Positions 1-56,813 of a stretch of 64,000 bases of DNA are shown piece after piece. The DNA is from Solobacterium moorei (GTDB taxonomy: Bacteria > Bacillota_I > Bacilli_A > Erysipelotrichales > Erysipelotrichaceae). The stretch is from contig NZ_AP028934.1 of NCBI RefSeq assembly GCF_036323475.1, positions 1,612,001 to 1,676,000 of the forward strand, given 5' to 3'. Numbering within the stretch: position 1 is the stretch's first letter; every line of letters starts with the position of its first letter. Made by a program: the position numbers and the translations under genes. The notes below the pieces were generated by a model, which ran no database searches, was not told where the DNA came from, and saw nothing but the letters and a program-made list of their open reading frames with translations.

Positions 1-932
1 TGAAGGAAAGACATGAAGTACACGGAAAAACGATACGGGTAGCTGACAAGGGACTGAACTGTTCAGAGAATATACTTTCAGCTTTGGCAAACGGCGATGG
101 ATATCTCTTTTCCAAATCAGTCAAGCAGCTGCCTGAAACAGAAAAGGTATGGGTTCTACTACCTAATGACTACAAAGCAATCAAGGACAGAAATGGCAAG
201 ATCATTTATTACTGTAAAGAATGTATCGATGAATTTCCATACACATATACAGATGAAAGCGGAAAAAAGAAAAAAGTAAACATCAAAGAAAAAAGAGTCG
301 TCACATACAATCCGACACTGGCAAGAAAACACAAATATGAAATAAACAAGCTTGTAGAAAAAGCCAAAGGTCTGTCCGTATCACTTGTAAAGAAAAATGA
401 ATATGGGGAAAGCGCAAAATATGTCACTTTCAGATCTACTTCAAACGGAGAAGAAGCAGAAGATAAAGTAAAGGCCATCATCAATCAGGAAACGATAGAT
501 AATGACTTGAAACTGGCCGGTTACAATATGCTTGTCACATCTGAAACAAAGGTGGATGCCAGACAGATATATGAAACATACCACAACCTGTGGAGGATAG
601 AAGAATCATTCAGAATCATGAAATCAGACCTAGATGCAAGACCTGTTTATTTACAGCTTGAGAATACGATCAAGGGACATTTCTTAATATGTTATCTTAC
701 TGTACTGCTGCAGAGAATATTTCAATTTAAAGTCTTGGAAAACAAATATTCCTCTTCAGAGCTGAATGAATTCTACAAAGCATTCCAGTTCGTTGAAGGA
801 GAAGACAGTTATACAAACATATCCATAGGAACCAACTTCATTACCGAATTATCAGACATGACAGGATTACCTTTAGACAATTATTTTTTATCTCCAACAA
901 AACTAAAAAAGGTGTTGAACTATAGATTCTAA
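1..932 (+). CDS. IS1634-family transposase, 3' part (5' end outside window)
   Basis: The reading frame is open from base 3 and stops at 932, so only the C-terminal ~309 residues are seen. The part from about residue 180 carries the spaced Y-x-x-L-W-R-I-E-E-S-F-R-I-M-K block, the Y(2)R(3)E(6)K signature around the catalytic Glu of IS4-superfamily DDE transposases; the IS1634 branch fits best by memory of related proteins. The enzyme would cut and paste its own IS by acting on terminal inverted repeats. Downstream is an AT-rich tail, and a possible right IS end lies within about 940-990. The gene is cut by the window edge; nothing shows that it is inactive. Confidence 0.82.
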   Translation, partial: KERHEVHGKTIRVADKGLNCSENILSALANGDGYLFSKSVKQLPETEKVWVLLPNDYKAIKDRNGKIIYYCKECIDEFPYTYTDESGKKKKVNIKEKRVVTYNPTLARKHKYEINKLVEKAKGLSVSLVKKNEYGESAKYVTFRSTSNGEEAEDKVKAIINQETIDNDLKLAGYNMLVTSETKVDARQIYETYHNLWRIEESFRIMKSDLDARPVYLQLENTIKGHFLICYLTVLLQRIFQFKVLENKYSSSELNEFYKAFQFVEGEDSYTNISIGTNFITELSDMTGLPLDNYFLSPTKLKKVLNYRF

Positions 933-1159
933 TCTGTAGTTTTACACCATTTTTTAATGTTTAACTCTAAAGTCAGGTTACATACTGCTTGTAAAGTTCA
1001 AAAGACAAGGTTTGTAAAGTTGTTGTAAAATACATAATGAACTGCATCAAAATCTACATAATCATTTTAGAACCTCCGTTTGGCTATGAATATTGTCACT
1101 AATATCGTTAAAAGATAAGCCCTCCTAGAATTCAAATCTTTATTATCCATTTCCAATCA

Positions 1160-1227
1160 CAAAAATAAAGGCTTTCCAACAGCCAATCGTACTCATTAAC
1201 GATAGCCCTCTGAAAAGCCTTTTATTT
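1160..1227 (-). terminator. Terminator-like stem downstream of rumA-like tail
   Basis: Minus-strand AAAGGCTTTTC pairs across a ~35-base loop with GGAAAGCCTTT, followed by ATTTTT. It sits just after the stop codon of the rumA-like tail at 1249. The rest of 933-1248 holds no gene I can support. Confidence 0.55.
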
Positions 1228-1296
1228 ACTACATATTTTTTTTACTTGTTAGGCTGTAACTTTTGACATCAAGACTACGCACTCGACATGAGATTG
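1197..1296 (-). repeat. att-like direct repeat, copy 1 (rumA 3' end and flank)
   Basis: Shares, in the same order, TTAACGATAGCCCTC, AAGCCTT, TACTACA and the core TTGACATCAA-xAC-xAC with 3224-3310. The core codes for VVLMS in both copies. The two copies bracket a ~2-kb decayed segment. Confidence 0.6.
1249..1296 (-). pseudogene. 3' tail of a rumA/RlmD-like 23S rRNA uracil methyltransferase
   Basis: The minus strand encodes QSHVECVVLMSKVTA and a stop. The H-V-E-x-V-x-L-M/L-S pattern is typical of the extreme C-terminus of RumA-type rRNA (uracil-5-)-methyltransferases, with a terminator right behind. Immediately upstream the frame hits a stop, so only about 15 codons remain. This fits the 3' half of an attB site left after an element integrated in the end of rumA, a known target of some serine-integrase ICEs. 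The identification rests on a short peptide plus context. Confidence 0.6.
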
Positions 1297-1452
1297 TTAG
1301 GCTAATTTCGGAAATTGGTCAATAAACTTAATTTTCCTCACGTAATCAGGGTCCTTATGCTTTGTTTAATCTTATTTTTTTAACCTTAATTAGGCTATTT
1401 TTTAAAATTACAGCCCTATAGTAATTTTTCTCCTAATGATTTGAAAAGTTTT

Positions 1453-2040
1453 TTAGAATAGTTGCATCATCATTTTCTTTTGTTGAGTCTGCTGAATAGC
1501 AAAACTGATGCTACAGTCGTCTTTGTAATATTTGAATAAGTTCTTTCTGAGCAGTTTTGTTTTATCGGCATTAAACTCGCTTCTATTTTTTCCCTCAGGG
1601 TTTCTTTTGACACCAGTGCAATAAATTTTGTTTGGATCTTCCGAATCGCTTTTGTTTAGCGAACGAACCATCGCTTGTTTTTCTAGATTCGAAGGTTGGA
1701 GTTTAATCTCAGTAGGAATACATCCACCTAGTCTTTCTGTAAATTGTTGAAGTATATTGCCTAAATTATTAGCATATTCAATACCAAAGTATTCTCTTAA
1801 TGTCTTTGCATCGATAATTAACTTTCTGGAATTAGCTCCCATAATCAAAGAGTCATCTAGATTCGCTTCTTTCATAAACTCTAATTTCACTAAAGCATAT
1901 CGGTCTATTCTTTTTTCTCCACCAACAAATCTTTTTACCAAGACAATATAGTTAATACTTTTATATCGAAACGTGAAGGTACAAATTGTCCACCCTTTAT
2001 TCTCCATATCTTCTTTTAATAGTTTTAAGTTTCCAAGCAT
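1453..2040 (-). CDS. Hypothetical protein, possibly DUF6037 family
   Basis: A 195-residue product beginning MLGNLKLLKEDM. This start is preferred because GGGAG lies about 8 bases upstream; an earlier ATG seven codons upstream lacks this. The protein is K/E/N-rich, without signal peptide or membrane segment. I only weakly recall a resemblance to DUF6037 proteins, which are found in mobile and defence-rich loci; no catalytic motif is visible. It lies 14 bases below the broken serine recombinase and between the two rumA-like att repeats, so it is likely cargo of a decayed element. Confidence 0.55.
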   Translation of the reverse strand: MLGNLKLLKEDMENKGWTICTFTFRYKSINYIVLVKRFVGGEKRIDRYALVKLEFMKEANLDDSLIMGANSRKLIIDAKTLREYFGIEYANNLGNILQQFTERLGGCIPTEIKLQPSNLEKQAMVRSLNKSDSEDPNKIYCTGVKRNPEGKNRSEFNADKTKLLRKNLFKYYKDDCSISFAIQQTQQKKMMMQLF

Positions 2041-2054
2041 ACTTCTATCTCCCT

Positions 2055-3004
2055 TTACCAACGCTTCTTCGAGCTATATTTCTTACTCTTTCTGTATAGT
2101 TTTCCATCTTCTCCATGTTCCATATTACTGCGAGCTGCCATCTCTATCTCAACTGCTTCAAACGTTTCTTTAGAAATAATGCCTGCATGATGATCTGTAT
2201 TCAAACCGCATTTACTGACAATTCCCGGAACAGCAATCGCTACATCACCTGTATATTTACGCCTAGTCAAAGTGCTCTCAACAGCCCGTTTACTCCAGAT
2301 GTCTTTCCCCTTGGGAGACTTAACACCTCTACTTTTTAGCCTTTTAATAATACCGCCGATACTTAATCCTTTTAAATACCAGTCAAAGATATCTCTTACC
2401 ACTTGTGCTTTAGCTTCATCAATAATCAGCATCCATGCTTATCTTTCTTATAACCATAACAAACTCTGTTATAAAGACCCGACGTGCCATCTTATGCTCT
2501 ACGCCTTAATACCCAAACAATATTCTCGCTACGCCAATCATTCTCTGCTTGACTACAAGCCTGAACCACACTAATTAAAAGCTCATTATCAACCGTTTCT
2601 GTATCAATCTTATCGGTTTCAAAGATAATTTTTGTTCCACACGATCGAATCTTTCTAATAGCTTCTAAGCCTTCTTTCGTGTCACGACCAAAACGGCTCA
2701 CACTTTTAGTAAGAATAATATCAATGCTACCTTTCTCACACTCATCAATCATTCGGTTAAATTCAGATCTTGTTGAACCAACCTTAGCGGAAGCAACATC
2801 TAGGAAAATATCAGCAACAAACCAAGTCATGTGAGCTGCAGCAAGGCGAGTAAGACCAGACACCTGAACAGCAAGACTATCCAGCTGCTCTTTACGATTT
2901 GTGCTCACGCGAGCATAAATGCCCACCGCATAATCCTTAATTACACGCTGAGGGTGGATGACTATCACATCTTTATTTAGCTCATCTATCTTATCCATAG
3001 CCAT
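2055..3004 (-). pseudogene. Broken serine recombinase (resolvase plus recombinase domains)
   Basis: Minus-strand codons from 3004 give a resolvase N-terminal domain: GIYARVST with the catalytic serine, then LTKSVSRFGRD. The frame meets an in-frame TAA after RRRA (near 2490), continues as DGTSGLYNRVCYGYKK, and then shifts frame near 2435 into LIIDEAKAQVVRDIF and the recombinase (PF07508-type) domain. It ends before any zinc ribbon or coiled coil, so it is nonsense-mutated, frameshifted and C-truncated. Tandem serine recombinases are a feature of rumA-targeting ICEs, and this may be a remnant of one. Confidence 0.85.
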
Positions 3005-3278
3005 CCCTCTTATTTTTAGATTAACGAAACTTAGATTTCCTCTCCATGATAATTAGCCTAAACCTTATTTTCCCACTTCACCAGTTGGGTGCAAAGTGAG
3101 TGCACCTTTTAACGTTAACATCCTGTGCACTAGGCCCTAGAGCGTCGACATGTTTCCTTATACAGCCAAAACACACTCAAAAACCGCGAAAGCCCAGCTT
3201 AAAGCCGCTTCGCATTAAACCTTTTAACGATAGCCCTCGCTAAGCCTTACTACACAAAGGCAAATTTGCACCCGGCTA
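3005..3278. other. Junction region, ICE end / neighbouring element
   Basis: No gene is supported. It holds a small inverted repeat (GGTGCA/TGCACC, 3086-3104) and, from 3224, the second copy of the rumA 3'-flank-like repeat. The ICE boundary should lie at the end of the integrase gene, around 3288-3300. Confidence 0.45.
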
Positions 3279-3310
3279 TTAAGCCCTTGACATCAATACA
3301 ACACTCTCAA
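3224..3310 (-). repeat. att-like direct repeat, copy 2 (ICE integrase end)
   Basis: Contains TTAACGATAGCCCTC and, over the last integrase codons, TTGACATCAATACAAC coding VVLMS. This parallels the rumA-like tail at 1249-1296. In serine-integrase ICEs that use rumA, the integrase acquires the target gene's last codons on integration, which would explain the shared tail. Confidence 0.55.
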
Positions 3311-4955
3311 CTTGCTCATCATTGTCCAAACTTATATTTAGATCCTCATCAATGATAGGTAGCTTAAAAGTAATGGATTTTAGCCATTGTCCATTTGGCT
3401 GCTTCTCTTCATAAATTTGAATTTCTGAAATGAGTGCTTCTATTAACTGCCTTCGCTCTACATCATTCATGACTTTATAGAGCTTATCAAAATAGATCAG
3501 AACCTTATATATGTTATCTCCTGTAAGTTTTTCAGCTTCAATAGTTTGTTTCTTTGCTTTTGCATCAATTAACAATGATTCTAATTCTTCAATTTTATCG
3601 TACATACGATAAAGTCTATCATCTAAATCCTGTTTTCTTCGTTTGTAGTGCTTATCTTCAACATCTAAATTATCTATTTCCTCAATGAGCTTAAATTTTG
3701 TGGAATGACTTTTCCTTAGCTCTTTTTGATAATTATCTATCTCATTTTCAATCGCTGATGTATCAACTTTCATGTTAATTTTATCCTGCATCATAGATGC
3801 AAATTTAGGATTGCTAACTAACTTAATTATTACCTCAGCAACAGCATCATCTAACAATTCTTCTCTAATTTGCTTACTGAAAGTACACTTATAACCTCTT
3901 ATCATCTGCCTATGTTTACAACCATAATAATAAAAATCTTTATACTTTGTGCCATCTTTCTTTTTCTTGATACACTTGTTTCCAAACATTCCCACTCCGC
4001 ATATCGGGCATTTTACAATTCCAGAAAGCAAGTGTGTGCGTGTATCTTTTCCTTTATTCACATGCTCATATTTCTTTGCTTGAGATTTTAGCTTAACCTG
4101 AGCAGCTTGCCAAACTTCATCGGAAACTATAGCTTCATGTATCCCTTCAGATATTAGATACTCATCTTGTTCAACCTGCTTATATTCATTTCTTGTACCA
4201 TGAACTTTTTCTAAAGTTCTTCTTCCAAATGCTATTTTTCCATTATATACAGGATTCTTTAATATCTTTCTTATAAGACCTGCGTCAAACAATGGATTTT
4301 TCCCATTTTGCCTTGGTATTTTCCTTATACCATGATTTTCTAAATATTTTGAAATACCATTAGCTCCAATACTTGTATTTACATACTGATCAAAAATAGT
4401 TCTTATTGCAATTGCTTCTTCTTCATTTATTAACAACTTTCCATCAATCAGTTGATAACCATATGGAGCAAATCCACCGTTCCATTTACCCTCTCTTGCC
4501 TTTTGAATACGACCTTCCATTGTTTGGACACGAATATTTTCTCTTTCTATTTCAGCCACTGCTGATAAAACAGAAATCATCAATTTACCCGCATCTTTAG
4601 ATGAATCAATTCCATCTTCAACACAAATAAGATTTACTCCAAAATCTTGCATTATTTGCAAAGTCGAAAGTACATCAGCAGCATTTCTTGCAAATCTCGA
4701 TAATTTAAATACAAGAACGAAAGACACTCCATCCTTTCCGGATTTTATATCTTCCATCATACGAGTAAACTGAATTCTGCCTTCTATAGATTTTCCAGAC
4801 TTACCTGCATCTTCGTATTCACCAACAATCTCATAATCATTATAGAGAGCAAAAGCCTTCATTCTTGATTTTTGTGCCTCTAAAGAATAACCGTCTATCT
4901 GTATTGATGTAGATACTCTTGTATAGAGGTATACTTTTATTTTTTCTTTTGACAT
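3279..4955 (-). CDS. ICE large serine integrase
   Basis: 558 residues. The resolvase catalytic domain (1-150) has VYLYTRVS with the nucleophile Ser15 and the FKLSRFARN block. A recombinase domain (~160-270), a zinc ribbon (CPICGVGM, then YYYGCKH and CTF) and a coiled coil (~395-480) follow. This is the architecture of TndX/Tn5397-like large serine recombinases, which join attP and attB without homology and need a directionality factor for excision. The last residues VESVVLMSRA mimic a rumA tail, so the attachment core probably lies in the final codons. It has a typical size and an intact frame. Confidence 0.92.
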   Translation of the reverse strand: MSKEKIKVYLYTRVSTSIQIDGYSLEAQKSRMKAFALYNDYEIVGEYEDAGKSGKSIEGRIQFTRMMEDIKSGKDGVSFVLVFKLSRFARNAADVLSTLQIMQDFGVNLICVEDGIDSSKDAGKLMISVLSAVAEIERENIRVQTMEGRIQKAREGKWNGGFAPYGYQLIDGKLLINEEEAIAIRTIFDQYVNTSIGANGISKYLENHGIRKIPRQNGKNPLFDAGLIRKILKNPVYNGKIAFGRRTLEKVHGTRNEYKQVEQDEYLISEGIHEAIVSDEVWQAAQVKLKSQAKKYEHVNKGKDTRTHLLSGIVKCPICGVGMFGNKCIKKKKDGTKYKDFYYYGCKHRQMIRGYKCTFSKQIREELLDDAVAEVIIKLVSNPKFASMMQDKINMKVDTSAIENEIDNYQKELRKSHSTKFKLIEEIDNLDVEDKHYKRRKQDLDDRLYRMYDKIEELESLLIDAKAKKQTIEAEKLTGDNIYKVLIYFDKLYKVMNDVERRQLIEALISEIQIYEEKQPNGQWLKSITFKLPIIDEDLNISLDNDEQVESVVLMSRA

Positions 4956-23680: not shown

Positions 23681-23701
23681 AAGGGAGCTGTTCGCTCCCT
23701 T
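23681..23701 (-). terminator. Hairpin between helicase stop and ssb start
   Basis: AAGGGAGC/GCTCCCTT perfect 8-bp stem with a five-base loop and a short T-run on the minus strand. It overlaps the helicase stop codon, 26 bases before the next start. Confidence 0.65.
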
Positions 23702-26700
23702 ATCTTAAAATTTCCTGTTCTTTTGTTTTCTGCTTTTCTTCTGTTTTACTTTCATTTTGATAGGCTCTTATCTGCCCTAAAATAGATGGCTTATCCTCAG
23801 ATTTTTGTGCGATTTCTTCTTTGCTATGAAGATTGTCCTCCACATCATAGGTTGACTCAAAATAATCACTGTCCTTAAAGTCATTGTCATATCTGTCAGG
23901 AATACCGTCATTATCAAGGTCTTTAGAAAGTGGATCATAGAAGTTTCCTTCATCATCAATATCAAGTCCTGTTGCTGCCTTTAAGTCTTCGGAATCCACA
24001 TAGACTAAATCTTCAAAAGAGGATAGCTCTATTTCATTTTTCATATTCCTTAGAGCTTCATTCTCTCCCTTGTTTTCATAGTCGAAGCTCTCTGTTTTGA
24101 TAGGAGTATCATCAATATACTGTGTCCATGTTTTCTCCTCTAAATCAAGCTCATATTGAATACCATGTCTTTCATCCGGTGTATTGGTATAGGCGATGCC
24201 GATGTGCTTTTGGTCAGGATATAGAGTATTAAATTCATCATAACTATGGTTTTCTTCATATTCTCTGTTGCAAAAGTCTATGATAGCTCTTTTTACATCT
24301 TCTACAAGGGGATTATCATTTCTCATTTCTTCCACTTCTCCCATATCAAGGAGCTTATTTAACTCTGCCAAGCGAAGCACTTTTGATTTTAACTCATCTG
24401 CCTTTTCAAAAGGTTTCTTTAATTCTTCTTTGGCATTTTCAAGCTGTTCCTTTGTACTGATAAGTTTTTCTTCAAGCCTGTTTAATTTCTCGGGCATTTT
24501 CTCAAGAGCGTTATCAAGTCTTGTAATGTTACCATCCGCACTTGTTCCAAGCTCTCCTGAATGCTTTGCAGCACCATTTAGGCTAAAGTTATGTTCATTG
24601 GTAAAGAAGTTATAACTTACCTCTAAATCCATATTCCTATACTTACCTATAACCTTGCTTTCATTGATTTTCACTTTAGAAATGGCTTCAAGTAGCTTTT
24701 CTCCGGCTAATTTCTTATCGGTAATTTTTTCGCCTGCAATGGTAATAGAAGTAAACTTTTCCTCACCTTCCGCTTTTGGATCTACATTGGATATATCTTT
24801 TTTGACAGCTTCAATGAGCTTTTCCGTTCTTGCGATTTCATCCGGGTAGTTTTTTGCCACCTTATCCTCTAATCTGTAACGGTTAGACTTATAGTTTGCT
24901 TCAAGCATTTTAAGTTTTGTAACCTCATTATCCAAGTCCATCTTTTCTTTAATCTTAGGATCGCCAGTGGCAAGTGCTTTAATCTCTGCATAGTTAAGTG
25001 AGCTTTCGTCCACATCTTCTGCAACTCTGACGGGAGTCTTACTGGTCATAATCTGAGAAATGAATTTCTGCTTATTCTCTATCGTCTGCCATAAGTAGCT
25101 GTCAAATGTATTCTCTGTAACATAACGATAGATATTTACTTTCTCATTTTCGTTCCCCTGTCTTACAATTCTCCCTGCTCTTTGCTCTAAGTCAGCAGGA
25201 CGCCAAGGCACATCGAGGTCATGCAAAGCAATCAGTTTATTTTGCACATTCGTTCCTGCTCCCATCTTCTGCGTTGAACCCATTAAGATGCGAACTTCGC
25301 CTTTTCTTACTTTCGCAAAGAGTTCATCTTTCTGTTTGTCTGAATTTGCTTCATGTATAAAGGCGATTTCTTCTTTCGGTATTCCCATAGCTACAAGTTT
25401 TTCTCTAATATCATCATAGATGTTAAATTCTCCATCTCCTTTTGGAGTGGACATATCAGAAAAAAGTAGCTGTGTTGACCTGTTTTCTTTTGTATTATCC
25501 CAAATAGCAAATACATTTTTCACGCATACATTGACCTTGCTATCAGGATTATCAGGAAGAAGTGGATTGATTAAACGCTGATCCAAGGCAAGTTTCTTAC
25601 CATCATTGGTAATTTTAAGCATATTATCAACATCTGGCTCTACAACCCTATTTCTGACATCATCTGCTCTTTTAGAAAGGCTCTTTAGGATTTCCTTTTG
25701 TTCTTCAGAAGGCTCTGTCTTAATAACCTCGTAGTTAGCTTCAGGTGTAGGAAGATTAAGCATATCTGCCGTCTGAATATCAGCAACTTCCTTAAACATA
25801 GACATAAGCTCAGGCAAGTTATAGAACTTTGAAAATCTCGTCTTTACCCTGTATCCTGTTCCTTCCGGAGACAATTCAAAGGAGGATTGTGTTTCTCCAA
25901 AAGTGGAAGCCCATGAGTCAAAATGCTCCAGTCCGTTCTTTTTAAGACTTTCATACTGAAGATACCTTTGCATAGTATAAAGCTCGGTCATTGAGTTACT
26001 TACAGGTGTTCCTGTTGCAAAAACCACGCCTTTGCCGCCTGTCATTTCATCCATGTAGCGGCATTTCATAAACATATCAGAGGACTTAAAGGCTTCTGAC
26101 TGTCCGATACCTGCAACATTTCTCATTTTTGTATAGAGATAAAGGTTCTTAAAGCCATGTGCCTCGTCAACAAAGAGCTTATCAACTCCCAGTTCCTCAA
26201 AGGTAATCACATCGTCTTTCTTAAAATCATCATTTAATTTCTCAAGCCTTGTTTCCAGTTTTTTCTTTGTCTTTTCAAGCTGTTTTACTGTAAAGTTTTG
26301 GTTTCTGTCATGCTTGTATTCTTCTACATAGTTTACGATTTCATCAATCTGATCTTGGATGTGCTTCTCCTGATATTCCTTTGACATGGGGATTTTTTCA
26401 AACTGCGTATGTCCGATAACAACCGCATCATATTCCCCTGTGGCAATCTTTCCGATAAATCTCTTTCTGTTTTTCGGCTCAAAGTCTTTCTTATCAGCCA
26501 CCATAATGTTAGCTGACGGATATAGCTGCATAAACTCTCGACCGATTTGCCCTGTTAGGTGATTTGGGACAACAAACAAGGACTTACTGCACATCCCAAG
26601 CCTTTTACTTTCCATTGCAGAAGCTACCATTTCAAAGGTCTTTCCACTTCCTACTACATGGGCAAGTAAGGTATTTCCTCCATAAAGACTTCTTGCTATG

Positions 26701-29700
26701 GCATTTCTTTGATGAGTTCTTAAATCAATCTCCGTATTCATTCCTTCAAAAGAAAGATTGCTTCCATCATATTCTCTGTTACGGATGGAGTTAAAACGCT
26801 CGTTATACAGTTTTACAAGACGGCTTCTTCTTTCCTGATCGTTAAATATCCAGTTCTTAAATTCTTCTTTTAATAGCTCCTGCTTTTGTCCTGCAAGCAT
26901 GGTTTCTTTTTTATTTAAGACAGAAGTTTTAGAGCCGTCCGGATTTACAATTTGGTCAAATACCTTTGTTTCTTTAAGGTTTAAGGCATCTTCAATCAGC
27001 TTATAGGCATTTACCCTTGATGTACCAAAGGTCATTTCAGCAAGGTCATTTCCTCTGTCCCTGCTTTTTCCTTCTACATTCCATTCGCTTGTAAGATTGG
27101 AAAATTTAACCTTAATATCCCATTTGGCATACCCCGGAGTTTTTAGCGTTTCAAAGATGAATTTCTCAATATCTTTAATCGGTATCCAAGTTGCACCAAG
27201 ACGCACATTGATTTCACTTGCTTCAAGTTCCTTTGGAAGAACTTTGGTAAGCTCTGCTTTTTGGTATTCCAAACGGTTCATTTCATAGCTTATCAGCTCT
27301 TTCTCTTTTCCATTCTCGGCAAAACCAAGATGAGGGAGTTCTCTTTCCGTTTGTCTGAGCTTTGATAAGTAACTGTCTACTATGGCAATCTTATCCCTGA
27401 TATTTCCACTTAAATATTCATCCTTTGTTACATAGCCATATTTATAGGAATTACTGCCATTGGCACAGGCAAAAGGTAAATCACCATCTTCTAAGTTAAA
27501 GGAAAGCGGTCTGTAAAAGTTTTGTTCCTCTCTAATATTTAGGTAGATTTCCCCTCGAAGCTCCTCAATCAAAGTCGGTCTGTCTTTTCCTGTAAGACTT
27601 CCCATATAGTCAAAATCCACATAGCCTTTTTCAGACACCGATAAGACAAGGGCTTCTAAAGAAGTATCCACATGGTCTATAACTTTAGCCTTTGTAATAG
27701 TTCTTTTGGAGAAAATATCTCCCTTTGCCTTGAAATTTTCTTCTTCATCAAGGATTTCTATGGAGGAAACAAGAGGGAAGTTACTATCTTCTTTCAAGGC
27801 TCTGGTATTGCTTAAATTATTGACAAAGCCATGCTTCTTTGAAAAGTTATCATAGACTTCATTTAGTTTTTCCTGTGAAACCTTGATTTCTTCTTCGCTA
27901 AAATCTTCTTTCTGCTTGTAAATCACATCTTTTAAGGCAGCATTCAGCTCAAGGTAATCCTTGATTTTTTCTTTATTCTTGTCTGATACTTCCTTTCTAA
28001 TAAAGAGTGAATTTTCTCTGTAATAGACTTCATCATCAATCAAGGTGTATGAGAAGTTCTTTACATCATCGGTTGCAGGGATAGAAGTTATTTCATCATC
28101 AAGTAGCTCTATTTCTTCATACTTGGCATCTTTTGAAATTCTTTCTCCTGCAATCTCGATACGATCCTTTAACGAAGCCATATTTATCTCTGTACCTAAA
28201 AAAGCTATCGGTTCACAAGTTAGAGTTTTCCCAAACCTTCCGCTAACTTCACGCATAGAACCAAGCACCTGCTCAGGATGATCGACAAAGTATTTGTTAT
28301 ATGAAAGTCCATTTTCATCTTCCGCAAGGTGTATCCAGTCCTCATCTCGCTCTAATACACTATCTCTTTTCTTTAAGAAGATAATATCTGAAGTAACTTC
28401 TGTGCCGGCTACGCCCTTAAAGGTATCGTTTGGAAGCCTTATTGCTCCTAAAAATTCGGCTCTTGCTGCGAGATACCTTCTAACACTTTCGTCTTTTTTA
28501 TCCATCGTTCCTGAAGATGTGATAAAGGCGATAACGCCACCATTTCTAACCTTATCAATGGATTTTGCAAAGAAGTAGTCGTGAATAAGAAAGTTATTAC
28601 GATTGTATTCCCTGTCATTTACCTTATACTCTCCAAATGGAACATTTCCGATTGCGATATCAAAGAAGTTGTTGGAAAATCCCGTTTCTTCAAGTCCCTT
28701 AACCTGTATATCACTTTCAGGGTATAGCAGCTTTCCAATACGCCCGCTTACCGAATCAAGTTCCACACCATAAAATTTTGACTTATTCATTTCATCAGGT
28801 AGATTACCGATAAAGTTCCCAACACCCATTGACGGTTCAAGGATATTGCCCTGTTTAAATCCCATACCTGAAAGTGTCTTATATACGCCATCAATAACGG
28901 TTTTCGGTGTGTAAAAGCTCGTTAAGGTTGATTCTCTTGCAGCTTCATATTCTGATGACGATAGATTTTCCTTTAAGAAAGCTCTTGCCTCTTTCCACTG
29001 TCCATCCTTACTTTCATCAAAGACATCAGCAAGTCCACCCCAACCAACATATTTCGCTAAAACTTCCTGAGCTGTAATATCAAGCTCTCGTTCTCCGCTT
29101 CCCACTCTGTTAAGCATAGAGATTGCTTCAAGATTATTGTTTAACCTCTCACTTGGAGATAACTTTGAAGGAAGCGTTTCTTCTGTAATCTTGAAATTGT
29201 GAGCCTGATTTTTCTTTATCTCTGCTTCCTCAAAAGTCTTTTCGGATTTTATATAAGTCAGATTTTCAAAGATTTTATCAAGCTCACTTTCCTTACGATA
29301 AGGAATTACATCGGAGCCTGTAATCATACCTCCAAGATATTCGGTATTATCCTTAACCGTTACTGTGTTTAGGTTATTTCCCATATCATCAAATCTTGTG
29401 ATGGTATAGTCTTTTCCCTTATATTTCACTTCATCGCCGATGATAAATTCAGGTCTTTCAAGACTTACTTGTCTTAATAAATCCTCATTATCAGTAAAGG
29501 ATACAATCGGTATTTGATGATTACCTTGCCTTGCAGGATCAAGCCACAAATCATTTCTTCCTGTGATTTGATTTTTAGAAATCTCCCTTACTTTGTACTC
29601 CTCATGATTAAAATAGACGGTATCGCCTTCTTGAACTGCAAACTCATCTAAAGGGCTGTCCTCTTTTTCGTTAAGCTCTACTTCTTCTTTTTCCTTTAGA

Positions 29701-32456
29701 TAATCTAATAAGGTAGCCTGAAAAGGTTCTGCTTGTATTCTTTCTTCTACTTCTTCAGGTGCTTCAAGCTCTGCAATATTGTCCTCAAAGCTAAGTTCTC
29801 CGTTAAAAACATGCTGAAGCTCCTGCTCATCCATCTGCTTTTTAAGTTCACTATCTTTCAGTTCTCTAAAGGTCTTTGGGAAATCCTCTAAAACAAGCCT
29901 TTGGGCATTTAATTCCTTTAGTTCATCAAGATTAAAATATCCCCATTCAGGTTCAATTCCTAAAACAAGTCCAAAAGCGTCTTTGCTTTCTCTATCGTAC
30001 TCCGTCATATACCAAGTCCAGTTGCTTCTAAATGGAATGATATATGCTGCATGAACCTGTTTATCCGCTAAAGCGACATCCTCTTGTGCATAAAGCTCAG
30101 GAACTTTCTCAAGCATTTCATCAGTCATTAGATTATTTGGATCATCTTTAGAATAATAGCTTGGCTCTTTTTGTTCTTCTATCTCATCCTTTCTTTCAAT
30201 GTCCTTTTCTTCAAGATAAAGATTTTTTGAAAGCAGCTCGTCTATATGCTTTGCTACATTTGACCATGTAAGAAATACATCGTTACAATGATTCTTCTGT
30301 AATTTAAGTCCCTTTGCATCGTGCCATTCATCACTTCCCTTTGCTCCTGAAACAGCATGAGAATGACCTCCGATTCCATACTCATCTTTTAAGAAATTTG
30401 CTTTTTCCTGCAAGGTATGATTTTCTTTGAAAAACTTAGTAATTCGCTCTTTTCCCTTATCGACTCCACTTCCCCTTGAAATCGTAGCAAGGACTTCATC
30501 TTCTGTAATAAAGCCATGTACTTTTGGAAGTTCAGTTAGGTTAGAGATATATTCCTTTCTTGGAAGTGCAAGCTCCTGTAATTTCTGATAAAGGCTATCT
30601 ACCTTGTGATAATGAAACCTTAGTATGCCCCTATCCTCTCTATATGCTCTCAAGAAACGACCATATTCAGAAATAACATTTTTTAGGTAGTCGGGATTTT
30701 TAAGTTTTTCGGATAGCACTCCTGTTTCTTTCGGAAAGCCTCCACCTCTTTCTATAAAGTCAAAATAACCCTGTGCTTTTCCTTCTTCACTTAAATCGTG
30801 GTATAGATACCATAGCGATTCTGAAACTCTATCTCTTTCATAGTCCTGTGCTTCCAAAAGCTCTATATTTGCAGCAAACTCTCCTGTTTCTAAAAGCTCA
30901 CTGATTCTTCTTGCAGCATTACTCCAGCTTAAAATTTGCGTATCATCTTCTCTTGCAGAAGTTCCATAAGCTAAATGAATGCCTTTATCCGAATACCAGG
31001 AAGATACTTCTGCTCCATTAAGAAATAAACCGTTTCCACCTCTAAATGTATCTTTAAGGTATTCTCCCAATGCTTCTACTGTTTTACCTTTGGAAAATTC
31101 AGCAATGATAGGAAGTCTTTCGCCCTCATGGTTTCCACCGTTTACAAGAATACTGTCAATATCATTTTGAGTAAGAGGTATTGTAAGTTTAATCTGTCCT
31201 GATCTGTTTTCGGGTAAAGAAAAAGAAGCCTTATCAGCTTCTCTTATCTCTTTATCCGTATTTTCTTTTAGATTTCCACTACTTCCTTGATTGTCATTTC
31301 TTTGAGGGCTGAAATCATTGCTTTGTACTGCGGATGGCTCTCGTCCTCTATCTGCCAAGCCATCATCAGTTTCGGCTTCTCTGCTCTCATAAACTCTATC
31401 GCCTGTTTCTGAGTATCCATCAGGTGTTTTGTCAGCTTCTTCTCCTTGTATAGATCCACTAACATCTCGAAGTTGCTCTGCTCCTCGCTGCTTGAAAGAT
31501 AATCCAGCCTCATCACTGCGTATGTCGGATTCGGATATTCCCTCATAAAGTCCGTCTCTTCCTCTAACTGATTCAGTGTATTCTCTTTGATTTTCTCTAT
31601 TATCTCGTCCGTACTCTCCATTTCGGAAAATTCGCTCGTTTTCACTAATTCTTTCCTGATCATCTCGTCGAAGTACATTTTCTTCTACCTCCTCTAATTC
31701 TTCTTTTATTTTATTATATCCTGCTTCTTTACCTCTTAAAACTTCTTTTTGCAGCTCTAACTCTTTACTCTTTTGAATGGTCGCATCAATTATATTTCCA
31801 CTAATGTCTGATACGATTTCTCCCAAGCTCATAAGGGAAATACTGTCAAGCATTGCAAAGTTTTCCTTTAAAAGTTCATTATCCATAGGATAGTCTAACT
31901 TAAATCTTGAAGCTACTGCATAGCTTACTGAATCCCTAACAAATTTAGTAAAAGATATTCTGTCCTCATCGGATATTCTAAGCTCATTTATCAAGCTATC
32001 TATTTTTTCATCTCCGTAGAACCTGCTTAAAGAAAAGATATTTTCTAAGGTGCTTTCGCTTTCTTCATAGCCCTCAGCTTTTATCATTTCTTTTAATACA
32101 TCTCTATGAGCTTCTTTATCAAATCTCCAAAGATTTACCTCATTGACATCTCGGTTTCTTGAAACAGTCTGACTTATATCAAAGATATAGTCCACTTTTT
32201 TGTATGTGCCATAATCCTCTAAAATGGGGATACCTTTTTGTCCACGCATAACCGTTCTGTTAAAGCGTTCTCTCCAGTAATCAAACTTGGCACAAGCTGT
32301 CGCTTCAGGATTTTTATCATAAATACTTAACTGACTTCTAAAATCGTACTTCTGATTGTTCCCGACAACTTTTAAGAGCTTCAGATACTCTGCTTCACTC
32401 TGCAGAACATCTTGTTTTATAAGCTCCAAAATGTTATGAAAATCATTTATTCGCAT
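23700..32456 (-). CDS. Giant ICE DNA methylase/SNF2 helicase protein
   Basis: 2918 residues from [22 protein letters not shown] seven bases upstream fixes this start. Domains in order: ArdC-like ssDNA-binding N-terminus (1-~110, [17 protein letters not shown]); low-complexity R/E/G/S segment (~260-400); DUF2958-like region (~815); N6-adenine methylase with motif [10 protein letters not shown] (~1209) and IGNVPFG (~1272); SNF2 helicase with Walker A VVGSGKTF (~1930), DEAH box (~2097), TGTPVSN and the motif VI region [14 protein letters not shown] (~2430). An Asp-rich [14 protein letters not shown] module (~2850) and [10 protein letters not shown] (~2894) follow. It is thought to protect or remodel incoming DNA. 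The low-complexity segment overlaps a second ORF. Confidence 0.92.
31268..31678 (-). CDS. Out-of-frame ORF nested inside the helicase gene, TnpV-like
   Basis: 136 residues starting [13 protein letters not shown], read on the same strand in a different frame from the helicase. AGGAGGT lies exactly eight bases upstream of the ATG (31687-31693). The product has normal globular composition, with [10 protein letters not shown] and [18 protein letters not shown] resembling TnpV-type transposon proteins (from memory). The helicase frame over precisely these bases (~260-396) is low-complexity R/E/D/G/S, as expected when the other frame is under selection. I judge it a probable real overlapping gene; expression is unproven. 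Confidence 0.6.
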
Positions 32457-32481
32457 ATTTACCTCCTTCTTTTTTACAAAC

Positions 32482-32515
32482 AAAAAAGGCGGTTAGATTT
32501 TACTCTAATCACCTT
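32482..32515 (-). terminator. Leader hairpin before the helicase gene
   Basis: Minus-strand AAAGGTGATTAGA pairs with TCTAACCGCCTTT (one G-U pair, one mismatch) and runs into six T residues. It ends about 25 bases upstream of the start codon and just ahead of AAGGAGG. Confidence 0.7.
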
Positions 32516-32568: not shown

Positions 32569-33600
32569 CTACTCATTTTCTTCTTCTGCAATTTCTGTAT
32601 ACTCTTTCAGCTTTCTTTGCAACAGGTTCTTATCTATTAGTTTTAAGGTGTATTCCGATACCATAGTAGGAGAAAGGCTTCTACTAAGTGCAAATTCTAC
32701 AACCTCATCATCTTTTGAAGCACAAAGAATAACACCGACACTTGGATTTTCAGTTTTCTTTTTTACTTCTCTATCTAATGCTTCTAAATACAAGTTCATT
32801 TTGCCTATATATTCCGGTTTAAACTCCCCTATCTTTAGTTCAAATGCAACTAAGCAAGATAACCCTCTATGATAGAATAATAAATCTATATAGTAATCAT
32901 GATTGCCAACCTGTACCCTGTATTCATTTCCTATGAATGAGAAATCTTTACCAATTTCCAATATGAAATTCTTCAGATTTTCAAGAATTGATTTTTGAAA
33001 ATCTCTTTCACTTCCAATCTTTGGTGCATCAAGAAATTCCAAGACATAGCTGTCCATAAACAAATTATGTGTTTCTTTCTTTGCCTTTTGTGTGGCAGGC
33101 AAGCTCTCACCGCTTGAAAGCATATACCTCTCATAATAACCACTATCCATTTGTCTTTCCAACTCACGCTTTGAATACTTTTCTCTGACTGCCAGTTCAA
33201 TATAAAATTGTCTTTCTTCCTTGCTTTTTGAACCAGACATTATTTTCAAGTGATTTGTCCAACTCAATTGTGTCACCAGTGGTGACACTTTTTCATCGTC
33301 CTTATATAACTCGTAGAATTGCTTCATTCTATAAAGTCCTCTGCGAGTAAACCCTTTTAGATCAGGATAATTTTCAGAGAAAAAATCAGCAACATTTTCC
33401 ACAAAATTTGATCCATAACTTGCTTCTTTGCTTTTCTCACTTATATACTTTCCCACTTCCTGATACATCAAAATCAGTTCTTCGTTGACTTTTCTATAAG
33501 CACGATCCTTTGCACCTTCGATAATCTTAACAATATCATCAAACTGATGATTATCTTTTCCCACATTTGTATTCTGCAATACCATCTTATCTTTATCCAT
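32569..33600 (-). CDS. YhcG/DUF1016-family PDDEXK nuclease
   Basis: 343 residues. The N-terminal DUF1016_N region (IIEGAKDRAYRKVNEELILMYQEVGKYI; LSWTNHLKIM) is followed by a PD-(D/E)xK nuclease core in YYIDLLFYHRGLSCLVAFELKIG (Asp...Glu-x-Lys, ~235-260). The family is widespread in mobile elements and next to restriction systems, with suggested roles in Holliday-junction or recombination processing; no firm reaction is known. GAGGTAAAT lies before the start. It is cargo-like, placed between the helicase and a small AbrB-type gene. Confidence 0.87.
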   Translation of the reverse strand: MDKDKMVLQNTNVGKDNHQFDDIVKIIEGAKDRAYRKVNEELILMYQEVGKYISEKSKEASYGSNFVENVADFFSENYPDLKGFTRRGLYRMKQFYELYKDDEKVSPLVTQLSWTNHLKIMSGSKSKEERQFYIELAVREKYSKRELERQMDSGYYERYMLSSGESLPATQKAKKETHNLFMDSYVLEFLDAPKIGSERDFQKSILENLKNFILEIGKDFSFIGNEYRVQVGNHDYYIDLLFYHRGLSCLVAFELKIGEFKPEYIGKMNLYLEALDREVKKKTENPSVGVILCASKDDEVVEFALSRSLSPTMVSEYTLKLIDKNLLQRKLKEYTEIAEEENE

Positions 33601-33839: not shown

Positions 33840-34066
33840 TTATATCATTTTTAGGGCATTTTTTCCAGCTTGAAATTAGTGTCATATTACTTGATATAAG
33901 TGGAAACCACTTCTTTTATCTCATTTTCAATCGCTTCTAAAAAATTTTCCTTTGAAGATTTTCCCTGTGCAATATCCGATAGCTCCATTTCCCACTTTGC
34001 TGTTGTTTCTGCTGATTTAAAAGTATCGGCTACAATCGTTACAAGGCTGATTCCCTTATGTGTATT
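33840..34066 (-). repeat. Duplicated 3' end of topB, copy A (degenerate)
   Basis: About 226 bases matching 35582-35808 at roughly 95%, which is the 3' end of topB and its downstream flank. Copy A is not preceded by the rest of topB: similarity stops abruptly after TTATGTGTA at 34066. The pair forms direct repeats 1742 bases apart around a foreign segment. Confidence 0.85.
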
Positions 34067-34286
34067 AACTTATCTGTTGATTTAGCCACCTTACCATTTA
34101 TCTTTTTTTAATTCCATCAGGCTTTTGATGTTGTAGTTGTTATTCATCCCGTATTTCTTTCATGTCTGTTTTTTCGTTTTCTGCCATTTAGTTCATCATT
34201 TCGACTTCCACAAAAAAAGATTTCCTGCACTTAGGAAACCTCTTTTTCTCTTGCTTATATTTTGTTTTTCGTTTTCGGTATTGATT
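34067..34286. other. Noncoding scar with leader-type hairpin
   Basis: No convincing gene. On the minus strand a hairpin (34211-34247, AAGAGGTTTCCT/AGGAAATCTT plus seven T) precedes a 15-codon ORF MAENEKTDMKEIRDE, a pattern seen before other element genes here. It may be the leader of a gene that was lost in the rearrangement. Confidence 0.4.
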
Positions 34287-35581: not shown

Positions 35582-35808
35582 TTATATCATTTTTAGGGCA
35601 TTTTTTCCACCTTGAAATTAGTGGCATCTTACTTGGTATAAGTGGAAACCACTTCTTTTATCTCATTTTCAATCGCTTCTAAAAAGTTTTCCTTTGAAGA
35701 TTGCCCCTGTGCAATATCCGATAACTCCATTTCCCACTTTGCTGTTGTTTCTGCTGATTTAAAAGTATCGGCTACAATCGTTACAAGGCTGATTCCCTTA
35801 TGTGTAGC
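35582..35808 (-). repeat. topB 3' end, copy B (intact gene end)
   Basis: Matches 33840-34066. It covers the last ~60 codons and stop region of topB, so this is the parental copy. Confidence 0.85.
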
Positions 35809-37335
35809 AATAAGGTTCTTTTTATCTCTTTCTACAAATCCCTTGAAAATCAGATTTTCAATAATCCCTGCTCTTGTTGCAGGTGTTCCAAGTCCTTTTC
35901 GCTCAACTTCTACACCTTTTTCCAATGCGTCATTTCCTGCAAGCTCCATCGCCTTTAGGAGAAGATCTTCCGTAAAATGCTTAGCTGGTTGAGTGTATTT
36001 TTCTTTTATCTCTTTATCTTTAATATCAAGACTATAACCAATCTTTACATCCGGAAGCACTGTATCTTCATTTTTCTTTTTCGCATATTCGTTTAGGTAA
36101 TTGGTAAAGCCATCATCTACAATCACCTTTCCACTACTTGTAAATTCAAATCCATCAAATTCAGCCACAATCTTCGTTGTATTCTCAATTAAAGGATAGC
36201 CTACACTTGCATGTAGCTTATTTAAAATAAGTTCATATACCTTCAATTCACTTTCCAGAAGAGAAGTTAAGTTCTCATTCATACTGCTTGCTGTCGGTAT
36301 AATCGCATGATGGTCTGTAACCTTTTTAGAATTAAATACCGTCTTGATACGCTCTGTGTCAAAATCATTCTTTCCTAAAATGTTATTAACCGTACTTACA
36401 ATCATATCTTCCGTAAGGCATCTGCTGTCTGTTCTTGGATAGGTAATCAGTTTCTTTTCGTAAAGACTTTGAGCATAATCAAGTGTCTGCTTAGCTGAGT
36501 ATCCAAAATATTTATTGCACTCTCTTTGAAGCGTCGTAAGGTCAAATGGCAGCTCAGGCTTTGTTATCTTTTCCTTTTGAATAACATCGGTAATTTCTAT
36601 CTTATCGCCTACTAAATTTAAGAGCTGTTCCGCTGTTATTTCATCATCAATTCTATCTGTTGATAGTGTAAAGCCATTAAGGCTTAATTCCACTGTAAAA
36701 TATTTTTCTTTCTTGAAATTGGCTATCTCATCATCTCTTTTTACAATCATTGCAAGGGTAGGTGTCTGCACTCTGCCCACACTGTAATTTTGCTTGTATA
36801 GACACGAATACAGTCTGCTTAAATTCATTCCCACAAGCCAATCTGCTATTGCTCTTGCTTGTGCAGACTCAAATAGATTATCGTAAGAACTTCCATCTTT
36901 TAGGTTATCAAAGCCCTCTTTTATGGCACTATCTTCCATTGATGAAATCCAAAGACGCTTCATCTTCTTTTTACAATTTGCCTGATTATATACAAGCCTG
37001 AAGATGGATTCTCCTTCACGCCCTGCATCGCAGGCATTTATCACGATGTCTATATCCTTATCATTCATCAGCTTTTTAAGAATCGTAAATTGTTTCTTTG
37101 TGGACTTTGCAATCTCATACTTATATTCCTTTGGAATAATCGGTAAATCCGCCATATTCCACTTAGCATACTTTTCATCATAGCTTTCCGGATTTGCCAT
37201 TTTAATTAAATGTCCAACACACCAGCTTACCTTATATCCGTTTCCTTCATAATATCCGTCTTTCTTCTTTGTTGCTCCGATCACTTTTGCAATAGAAATT
37301 GCAACACTTGGCTTTTCAGCAATTACTAAATTCAT
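35629..37335 (-). CDS. topB: ICE type IA DNA topoisomerase III (TopB)
   Basis: 568 residues. The TOPRIM domain has NLVIAEKPSVA at the start and NACDAGREGE (~105). The active-site tyrosine is in LITYPRTDSR (~300), with HHAIIPT and the C-terminal GLGTPATRAGIIENL block. It relaxes negatively supercoiled or catenated DNA and is a standard gene in Tn1549-like ICEs, probably helping process element DNA. The zinc-finger tail of chromosomal TopB is absent, as usual for element versions. Confidence 0.92.
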   Translation of the reverse strand: MNLVIAEKPSVAISIAKVIGATKKKDGYYEGNGYKVSWCVGHLIKMANPESYDEKYAKWNMADLPIIPKEYKYEIAKSTKKQFTILKKLMNDKDIDIVINACDAGREGESIFRLVYNQANCKKKMKRLWISSMEDSAIKEGFDNLKDGSSYDNLFESAQARAIADWLVGMNLSRLYSCLYKQNYSVGRVQTPTLAMIVKRDDEIANFKKEKYFTVELSLNGFTLSTDRIDDEITAEQLLNLVGDKIEITDVIQKEKITKPELPFDLTTLQRECNKYFGYSAKQTLDYAQSLYEKKLITYPRTDSRCLTEDMIVSTVNNILGKNDFDTERIKTVFNSKKVTDHHAIIPTASSMNENLTSLLESELKVYELILNKLHASVGYPLIENTTKIVAEFDGFEFTSSGKVIVDDGFTNYLNEYAKKKNEDTVLPDVKIGYSLDIKDKEIKEKYTQPAKHFTEDLLLKAMELAGNDALEKGVEVERKGLGTPATRAGIIENLIFKGFVERDKKNLIATHKGISLVTIVADTFKSAETTAKWEMELSDIAQGQSSKENFLEAIENEIKEVVSTYTK

Positions 37336-54893: not shown

Positions 54894-56813
54894 TTACATT
54901 ATCTTCTGAAACATATGCCGGATCTTGTCTAAACGGCTGTTCGGGCGGCGTGGCTGAAACACAGGCTCGCCGGAAGTTTCCTGATACCCTTTTAATTCTG
55001 TAATGCAGACACTTCTTCCATTTGTATAAAAATTCAAATCATTTCTATATTCACCAATACAACGGGCAGGGATTTCCCCCTTAAAAATAACTTCATCTTT
55101 TTCAAGTCTGGTTGATTCAATGATTGCGCAATACTTTGGTGCGTCATTATAAGCCCGTGAAAGATATTCCTGCGGTGCAAAAAGGGTAAAGGAAAGGTAT
55201 GGTTCCAACAGTTGTGTTCCTGCTTTTTTCAATGCCTGCTCCAACACGACAGGCGCAAGAAAACGAAAATCAGCGGGGGTGCTGACCGGGCTGTAATAAA
55301 CTCCATAATCAAAACAAATTTGGCAGTCTGTCACTCCCCAGCCATATAAGCCCTGCTCCATTCCATAACGCACACCCTCCATGACGGCATTTTGAAAACT
55401 TTGGTTTAAATAGCCGAGAGATACCTCGCTTTTATATTGTGTTCCGCTTCCAACAGGAAGCGGTGTTACAGTCAAACCAATAGATGCCCAAAACGGATTC
55501 GGCGGCACTTCAATATGAATCGTGTAGCTCGCTTTTTTTTGCGGTCTTTCCAGATAAATAACCGAAGGCTCTTTCATAGCCACGCCCACATGATATTTTT
55601 CTTCTAATAGCGAACAAATAACTTCTAACTGTACTTTTCCCAAAAAAGATAATATAATCTCATGTGTAACAGTATCAATGTCAAAATGCAAAAGAGGGTC
55701 TGTATCAGCAATCTCTGTGAGGGCATTTAACAGGGCTTCCCTTTGCTCCGGCTTTTGCGGCTCTACCGTTGTCCGAAGTAATGGCATGGGATTATCAATC
55801 CGTGTTTTGTGAGGCAGGAGTTTTTCATTTCCCAGAATGTCGTTCAGTTTCAAAGTATCATCAGCTAAAATAACAATTTCTCCCGGACAGGCATGGTCAA
55901 CCGGGACGATTTCACCATTTGACGGAATACACATTTCTGTAATCTTTATTTTTTCCTTTTTTGACAGCAGCAGGGTATCCCGTAAATGGAGCGTCCCATG
56001 ATACAGGCGTAAATAAGAAAGCCGTTTTTTCCGCTCTGTATACTCAACCTTAAAAACATATCCACATAATTCAGACTGAATATCGTCTGTTTCTGTAATG
56101 AAAGTTTCTGTAATCGCTTCAATCAGTTTTTCTGTTCCTAAATTGTCTTTTGCACTCCCATGATAAACAGGAAACAAAGAGCAGCATCTGGTTCTTTTGC
56201 ACTTTTCATATTGTAATTCCTGTATATCCAAAGAATCCTCTGCAACATATCGTTCTAATAGTTCATCGCTTCCGGAAATAATCATATCCCATTTGTCCAA
56301 ATCAGAAATATCGGTCATGGTTATCTTTGGCGACAGGGAAACCTCCTGCATGACAATCATATCACTGGTAAGTTTATCTTTAATGCTTTGGTAAACACGC
56401 CGCAGGTCGATCCCATTTTGGTCTATCTTATTTATAAAGATAATTGTCGGAATGTCCATTTTCTGAAGCGCATGGAATAATATACGGGTTTGTGCCTGTA
56501 CGCCGTCTTTTGCCGAAATGACTAAAACAGCTCCGTCAAGGACAGATAAAGAGCGGTATGCTTCGGTTAAAAAATCCATATGACCGGGAGTGTCCACGAT
56601 ATTGATTTTATAATCATTCCAGCAAAAAGAAGTAACCGCTGTCTGAATGGTAATTCCGCGCTGCCGTTCCAAAATCATAGTGTCTGTTCTTGTAGTTCCT
56701 TTATCCACGTTTCCTTGTTCCGCAATCGCTCCACTGGTGTACAGCAGGCTTTCCGTCAATGTTGTTTTTCCTGCGTCTACATGGGCGAGAATTCCAATAT
56801 TGATTATTTTCAT
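54894..56813 (-). CDS. tet(32): Tetracycline resistance ribosomal protection protein, Tet(32)-like
   Basis: 639 residues, the exact length of Tet(M)/(O)/(W)/(32). EF-G-like GTPase with AHVDAGKTT (P-loop), DTPGHMDF and NKID; domain IV loop [12 protein letters not shown]; end of C-terminal helix RHMFQKIM. It removes tetracycline from the ribosomal A site using GTP. Class-diagnostic differences from Tet(M), (O) and (W) occur throughout; by memory the central and C-terminal parts fit Tet(32) best, and a mosaic allele cannot be excluded. Expression is controlled by the leader attenuator upstream. Confidence 0.93.

Follow-up and report, generated by a model that had tools for sequence, protein, structure and literature searches.

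A diverged TnpV-family gene, very probably coding, nested out of frame within the helicase gene of Tn1549-like ICEs

TnpV (PF14198), known from Tn4451/Tn4453-type elements, is a small acidic protein found on mobile elements, and annotated TnpV genes are free-standing. The TnpV of Tn4451 has been postulated to act in excision on the basis of homology to lambda Xis (PMC3158075), and we found no tested biochemical function for TnpV in the accessible literature. In Streptococcus ICEs, smaller elements integrate into the snf2 gene, and TnpV has been reported there as cargo only (PMC9815147), with no mention of an overlap. Long overlapping genes have been described in bacteria, for example in E. coli O157:H7, in which a protein gene is likewise embedded in another, and in the accessible parts of these papers (PMC4683798, PMC7103648, PMC9927249) the overlaps are antisense or have recently arisen in one species. 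According to the accessible part of PMC8665328, standard annotation programs disallow long same-strand nested genes. Our literature search, which covered mainly open-access papers, found no prior description of a nested TnpV.

We analyzed a 64,000-nucleotide stretch of Solobacterium moorei DNA (the window), which contains a Tn1549-like ICE with topoisomerase, CD1107-like, CHAP-protein, VirB4/TraG-type ATPase, TrbL and serine recombinase genes. Immediately upstream of the helicase lies a gene for a YhcG/DUF1016 PDDEXK nuclease (32569-33600, minus strand). The element also carries a gene for an EF-G-like protein of 639 aa (54894-56813, minus strand), probably a tetracycline ribosomal protection gene. 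Two near-identical plus-strand ORFs (33900-34085 and 35642-35992) lie antisense to the topoisomerase 3' end, and a piece of the topA tail thus appears to be duplicated about 1.7 kb apart, flanking the 34-35.6 kb stretch. The helicase gene of the window is, like Streptococcus snf2 (PMC9815147), an SNF2-type ICE gene, and an S. suis plasmid helicase (L012) also has a nested ORF. The features of the locus are as follows.

23700-32483, minus strand: SNF2/DEAD-type ICE helicase, 2927 aa, with Eco57I-type methylase-like and SNF2/Helicase_C domains.
31720-32453, minus strand: conserved N-terminal region of the helicase, about 240 aa, directly upstream of the nested gene, with which it co-diverges.
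31687-31693, minus strand: Shine-Dalgarno sequence AGGAGGT, 8 nt upstream of the nested ATG.
31268-31678, minus strand: putative nested gene of 136 codons and a stop, in frame +1 with respect to the helicase; product assigned to the TnpV family as a diverged member.

Unlike annotated TnpV genes, the window gene is completely enclosed by a second gene that is read in a different frame. It also differs from the published overlaps, as far as the accessible parts of those papers describe them, in being on the same strand, in being kept across Bacillota classes, and in that an established family is overlapped by a putative helicase linker.

A first-pass annotation had reported a 136-codon out-of-frame ORF with AGGAGGT eight bases before its ATG, and this ORF is present as described. 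The start region reads GAGGAGGTAGAAGAAA-ATG, that is, AGGAGGT, 8 nt and ATG. The ORF has no internal stops, and it is fully contained within the helicase frame, which runs uninterrupted through the whole nested gene (residues ~269-405 of the helicase with the TTG as start, 259-395 with the ATG at 32453). The predicted product of 136 aa is acidic, with a pI of 4.7. No other +1 ORF of more than 60 aa exists in the 2927-codon helicase frame, and the longest +2 ORF has 18 aa. When the helicase codons were shuffled synonymously, a +1 ORF of at least 136 aa arose anywhere in 8.3% of the shuffles, and outside the overlap in 1.0%. The length of the nested ORF is therefore weak evidence by itself and not significant alone. 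What places it beyond chance is the combination of intact homologues in the same phase, purifying selection specific to its frame, and homology to a known family. An AGGAGG-like site is retained before the nested start in homologue groups A-C wherever the sequence is unmasked, and a Shine-Dalgarno sequence also precedes the starts of nested canonical TnpV genes; upstream of the start in the diverged S. suis member L012, there is no clear AGGAGG at the usual spacing. A scan for internal promoters gave no excess over shuffled sequences.

About 90 loci have an intact nested ORF, with identities from 100% down to 28%, and it always lies in the same phase within an SNF2/DEAD-type ICE helicase; this bears out the earlier proposal of a conserved, unannotated gene. 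In a six-frame search of 60 relatives, the source genome proved to contain two further copies, 96% and 87% identical, and a second genome of the order another two. Plasmid matches by tblastn, all four within an ICE-type helicase frame, came from Streptococcus agalactiae (64%), Aerococcus tenax (43%), Anaerococcus prevotii (42%) and S. suis (28%). Scanning genome contigs yielded 80 loci, in Streptococcus, Peptoniphilus, Anaerococcus, Peptostreptococcus, Bulleidia, Eubacterium and others, and viral contigs contributed six loci with a nested homologue; a search of a phage collection with the nested protein found no match. Stops in the nested frame of most homologues would have spoken against dual coding, and none was found in any homologue checked: the nested frame is open in all, in the same phase, while the third frame, where unmasked, meets a stop after a few codons. 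In the helicase-annotated records NC_013164, NZ_CP135064 and NZ_CP033047, the helicase alone is listed (the plasmid gene table being incomplete). The source genome itself has at least four related ICE helicase genes, at 0.51, 0.69, 1.64 and 2.06 Mb, each of these four enclosing a TnpV-type ORF (three belong to the window subfamily, one is canonical). Two loci with nested gene and helicase (L058 and L066) come from assemblies named Haemophilus massiliensis and Necropsobacter massiliensis (Pasteurellaceae), which reflects either transfer out of Bacillota or contamination. At three loci the nested gene is intact and the helicase frame stops early, shortly past the nested gene in L010 and L034 (436 and 512 aa) and inside it in L101 (398 aa).

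Substitution patterns show which of the two frames is constrained in its amino acids. We computed dN/dS by the Nei-Gojobori method within three homologue groups, A, B and C, and obtained values of 0.16, 0.17 and 0.13, respectively, for the nested frame. Over the same bases, the corresponding values were 1.32, 1.50 and 1.75 for the helicase frame, and 1.18, 0.86 and 1.75 for the third frame. Outside the overlap, the helicase flanks gave 0.09-0.29 and the N-terminal domain 0.09-0.17. The sites that change most in the three groups are third positions of nested codons, equivalent to first positions of helicase codons, and the third codon position of the helicase, which is nested position 2, changes slowly. 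Four sets of canonical nested TnpV genes behave in the same way, with a pN/pS of 0.21-0.36 in the nested and 1.2-2.0 in the helicase frame. From this per-frame pattern it follows that, within the overlap, it is the nested gene whose amino acids are constrained, and no such constraint is seen in the helicase frame. Constraint confined to the helicase frame had been named beforehand as grounds for rejection; the opposite was found, and dual coding with the nested frame dominant, as first suggested, holds. The +1 ORF could instead be a chance by-product of biased helicase composition, with the helicase as sole product, and 8% of synonymous helicase shuffles do reach its length; but a product of chance would not account for purifying selection that is present in the nested and absent in the helicase frame, nor for a product whose family is also known as free-standing genes. 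Already refuted by the substitution pattern, this explanation has virtually no chance of being correct.

The helicase frame across the overlap is nonetheless still used. A T at nested codon position 3 before AA, AG or GA creates a stop in the helicase frame, and such a T occurs at 0/1232, 0/359, 0/729 and 0/25 sites in groups A, B, C and D (0/2345 in total) and at 0/267 in the four canonical nested sets, whereas T occupies 36-44% of other positions (about 37% overall) and 46-65% in the flanks. When the codons of the window nested ORF were shuffled synonymously, the helicase frame remained open in 0/20000 shuffles. The helicase-frame product is also more hydrophilic than expected: with flank codon usage as the null, hydrophobicity over the overlap in the window is 0.168, versus 0.242 (SD 0.019) in stop-free recodings, and the excess hydrophilicity is about 3.5-4.5 SD, two other groups being similar. 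The constraint on the host frame thus comprises stop avoidance and hydrophilicity, and no constraint on amino-acid identity was seen. A helicase frame that became charged and of low complexity exactly over the nested ORF had been noticed from the sequence, and R/E/D/G/S/K/N/Q/P do make up 76% of its residues there. A charged R/E/D/G/S segment is what would be expected from an E/K/M-rich helical protein read one base back, together with selection for openness and hydrophilicity; we infer that the charged stretch of the helicase is a by-product, a hydrophilic linker spanning the nested gene. Were the nested gene alone to matter, the helicase N terminus would be separate or decayed and its frame open by accident. 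This would fit helicase-frame residues that evolve in the overlap as fast as an unused frame, and the early ends of the helicase frame in L010, L034 and L101 beside intact nested genes. It is very improbable given that stop-creating T is wholly absent from groups A-D and the canonical sets, that the N-terminal domain is under purifying selection, and that most loci have long open helicase frames.

We therefore favor dual coding, in which 31268-31678 would encode two proteins, the dominant one being an acidic, helical TnpV-family protein of 136 aa. This protein would be translated on the helicase mRNA from its own Shine-Dalgarno sequence and ATG. A ribosome translating the helicase would read the overlap one frame back and produce a charged, fast-evolving hydrophilic linker, which may join the N-terminal domain of the helicase to its methylase-like and helicase part. 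Selection in the helicase frame would act mainly for openness and hydrophilicity, and in the nested frame for a folded TnpV. Shine-Dalgarno-like elements within genes can also promote frameshifting. Programmed ribosomal frameshifting from the helicase N terminus, giving a fusion of the N-terminal domain with TnpV and no separate protein, would accord with such an element on the same strand and with the +1 phase; it is highly unlikely, since homologues keep an ATG at Shine-Dalgarno spacing, the nested frame usually has a stop a few codons before that ATG, and TnpV also occurs as free-standing genes of comparable length. Judged on these sequence patterns, the nested gene is very likely real and protein-coding, a grading that leaves its function aside, and one stretch of DNA very probably yields two proteins where the annotation shows one.

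While the proposed likeness to TnpV stands for the family, the window protein itself falls short of the Pfam threshold. It matches PF14198 over residues 49-115 with 12.3 bits (E 0.17), below the 27-bit gathering score, and so we based the family assignment on intermediates and profile comparison. Two nested relatives, G390 and G295, score 63.4 and 49.8 bits against PF14198 and also match the profile of the window nested set; all nine aligned members match PF14198 (best E 1.8e-14). A comparison of that set with nested canonical TnpV by hhalign gave 97.1% probability (E 6.3e-11, 63 columns). By these comparisons, the nested product is a diverged TnpV, whose subfamily differs from canonical TnpV in lying under the Pfam cut-off and in having an extra N-terminal stretch. 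NCBIfam gave no meaningful match for the nested protein, and in PHROGs one unnamed family, phrog_24764, matches 19 of 40 members, the window protein not among them. Searching 392 genomes of the phylum with PF14198 found TnpV in 40 genomes, and 60 matches were examined, of which 47 are free-standing (no spanning frame of at least 200 aa) and 13 nested. The 13 nested copies share an identical offset and phase, 12 within helicase-like frames of at least 900 aa and one (G295) in a broken helicase. Nested canonical TnpV also occurs in the source genome, in a fourth element (509885-510211), and further nested cases were seen at L221, L225, L232, L234, L235, L236 and L245. In the same genomes, all long helicase frames with a full N-terminal region have a +1 nested ORF (the G036 copies being partly masked), with the caveat that one nested product, in G196, was missed by the profile and is TnpV-like by eye alone.

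A confident model of the nested protein computed with AF2 from a 40-sequence alignment (pLDDT 90.1, pTM 0.83) has seven helices and no strands. A PDB sequence search with the nested protein returned no match, and a fold search of PDB and BFVD, with VIA re-alignment, found nothing with E <0.001, the best Z of 4.1 being to unrelated helical proteins, which gave no lead on function. Eight of the 47 free-standing TnpV genes closely follow a large serine recombinase, and single cases follow a relaxase-like ORF or ParA/ParB-like ORFs, recognized by eye; such neighbors are consistent with a general DNA-processing accessory on mobile elements. At four loci (L185, L188, L189 and L191), free TnpV frames start within or right after the end of the large serine recombinase, forming tnpX-tnpV-like pairs that overlap by up to about 200 bases, stop to stop. 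The lambda Xis fold is a winged helix with β-strands. A TnpV acting as an Xis-like excision factor rather than as a partner of the helicase or of transfer would be compatible with a real nested gene, and it finds support in the proposed homology to lambda Xis (PMC3158075) and in the eight recombinase-adjacent copies. We consider it rather unlikely: the AF2 model has helices only, as opposed to a winged helix (a comparison with the fold as generally known), and no same-strand recombinase ORF was detected within some 3 kb of the nested copies. Because of the all-helical fold and the position within a helicase gene, we argue for an accessory role other than that of Xis; tentatively, TnpV would most likely function as a DNA-processing factor for the element and be produced together with the helicase.

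The nesting arrangement is old and common to this class of Tn1549-like ICE helicases. Distances between nested proteins correlate closely with those between helicase N termini (Mantel r 0.92, reached in 0/5000 permutations), and the distance correlations with the 500 aa downstream are 0.59 for the nested protein and 0.63 for the N terminus. A single clade of all nested copies on the TnpV tree was rejected (p-AU 3e-5, on a short alignment). Our preferred reading of the sequences is that nesting probably occurred once, long ago, with some free copies derived later; repeated nesting or repeated exchange is possible instead. At L216 (G040:C17, ~643-3327 in gene orientation), a free-standing TnpV gene follows ParA- and ParB-like ORFs and is the nearest relative of a nested TnpV of that genome, a kinship that suggests that TnpV genes have moved between the nested and the free state.

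In bacteria, few long same-strand nested genes are clearly supported by evolutionary evidence, and the present one adds a well-controlled natural case of frame-specific selection, in which an odd charged helicase segment is explained as a by-product. A known family has a substantial hidden share within another gene of conjugative elements, in Streptococcus, Aerococcus, Anaerococcus, Peptoniphilus, Erysipelotrichales and others. With some reserve, we propose that this is an ancient, obligate gene-within-gene, fixed in phase, in the main helicase of a widespread class of conjugative elements of Gram-positive bacteria, in which TnpV may partner the helicase in DNA transfer, both being made from one mRNA segment. 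The finding suggests that a component of ICE transfer has been overlooked.
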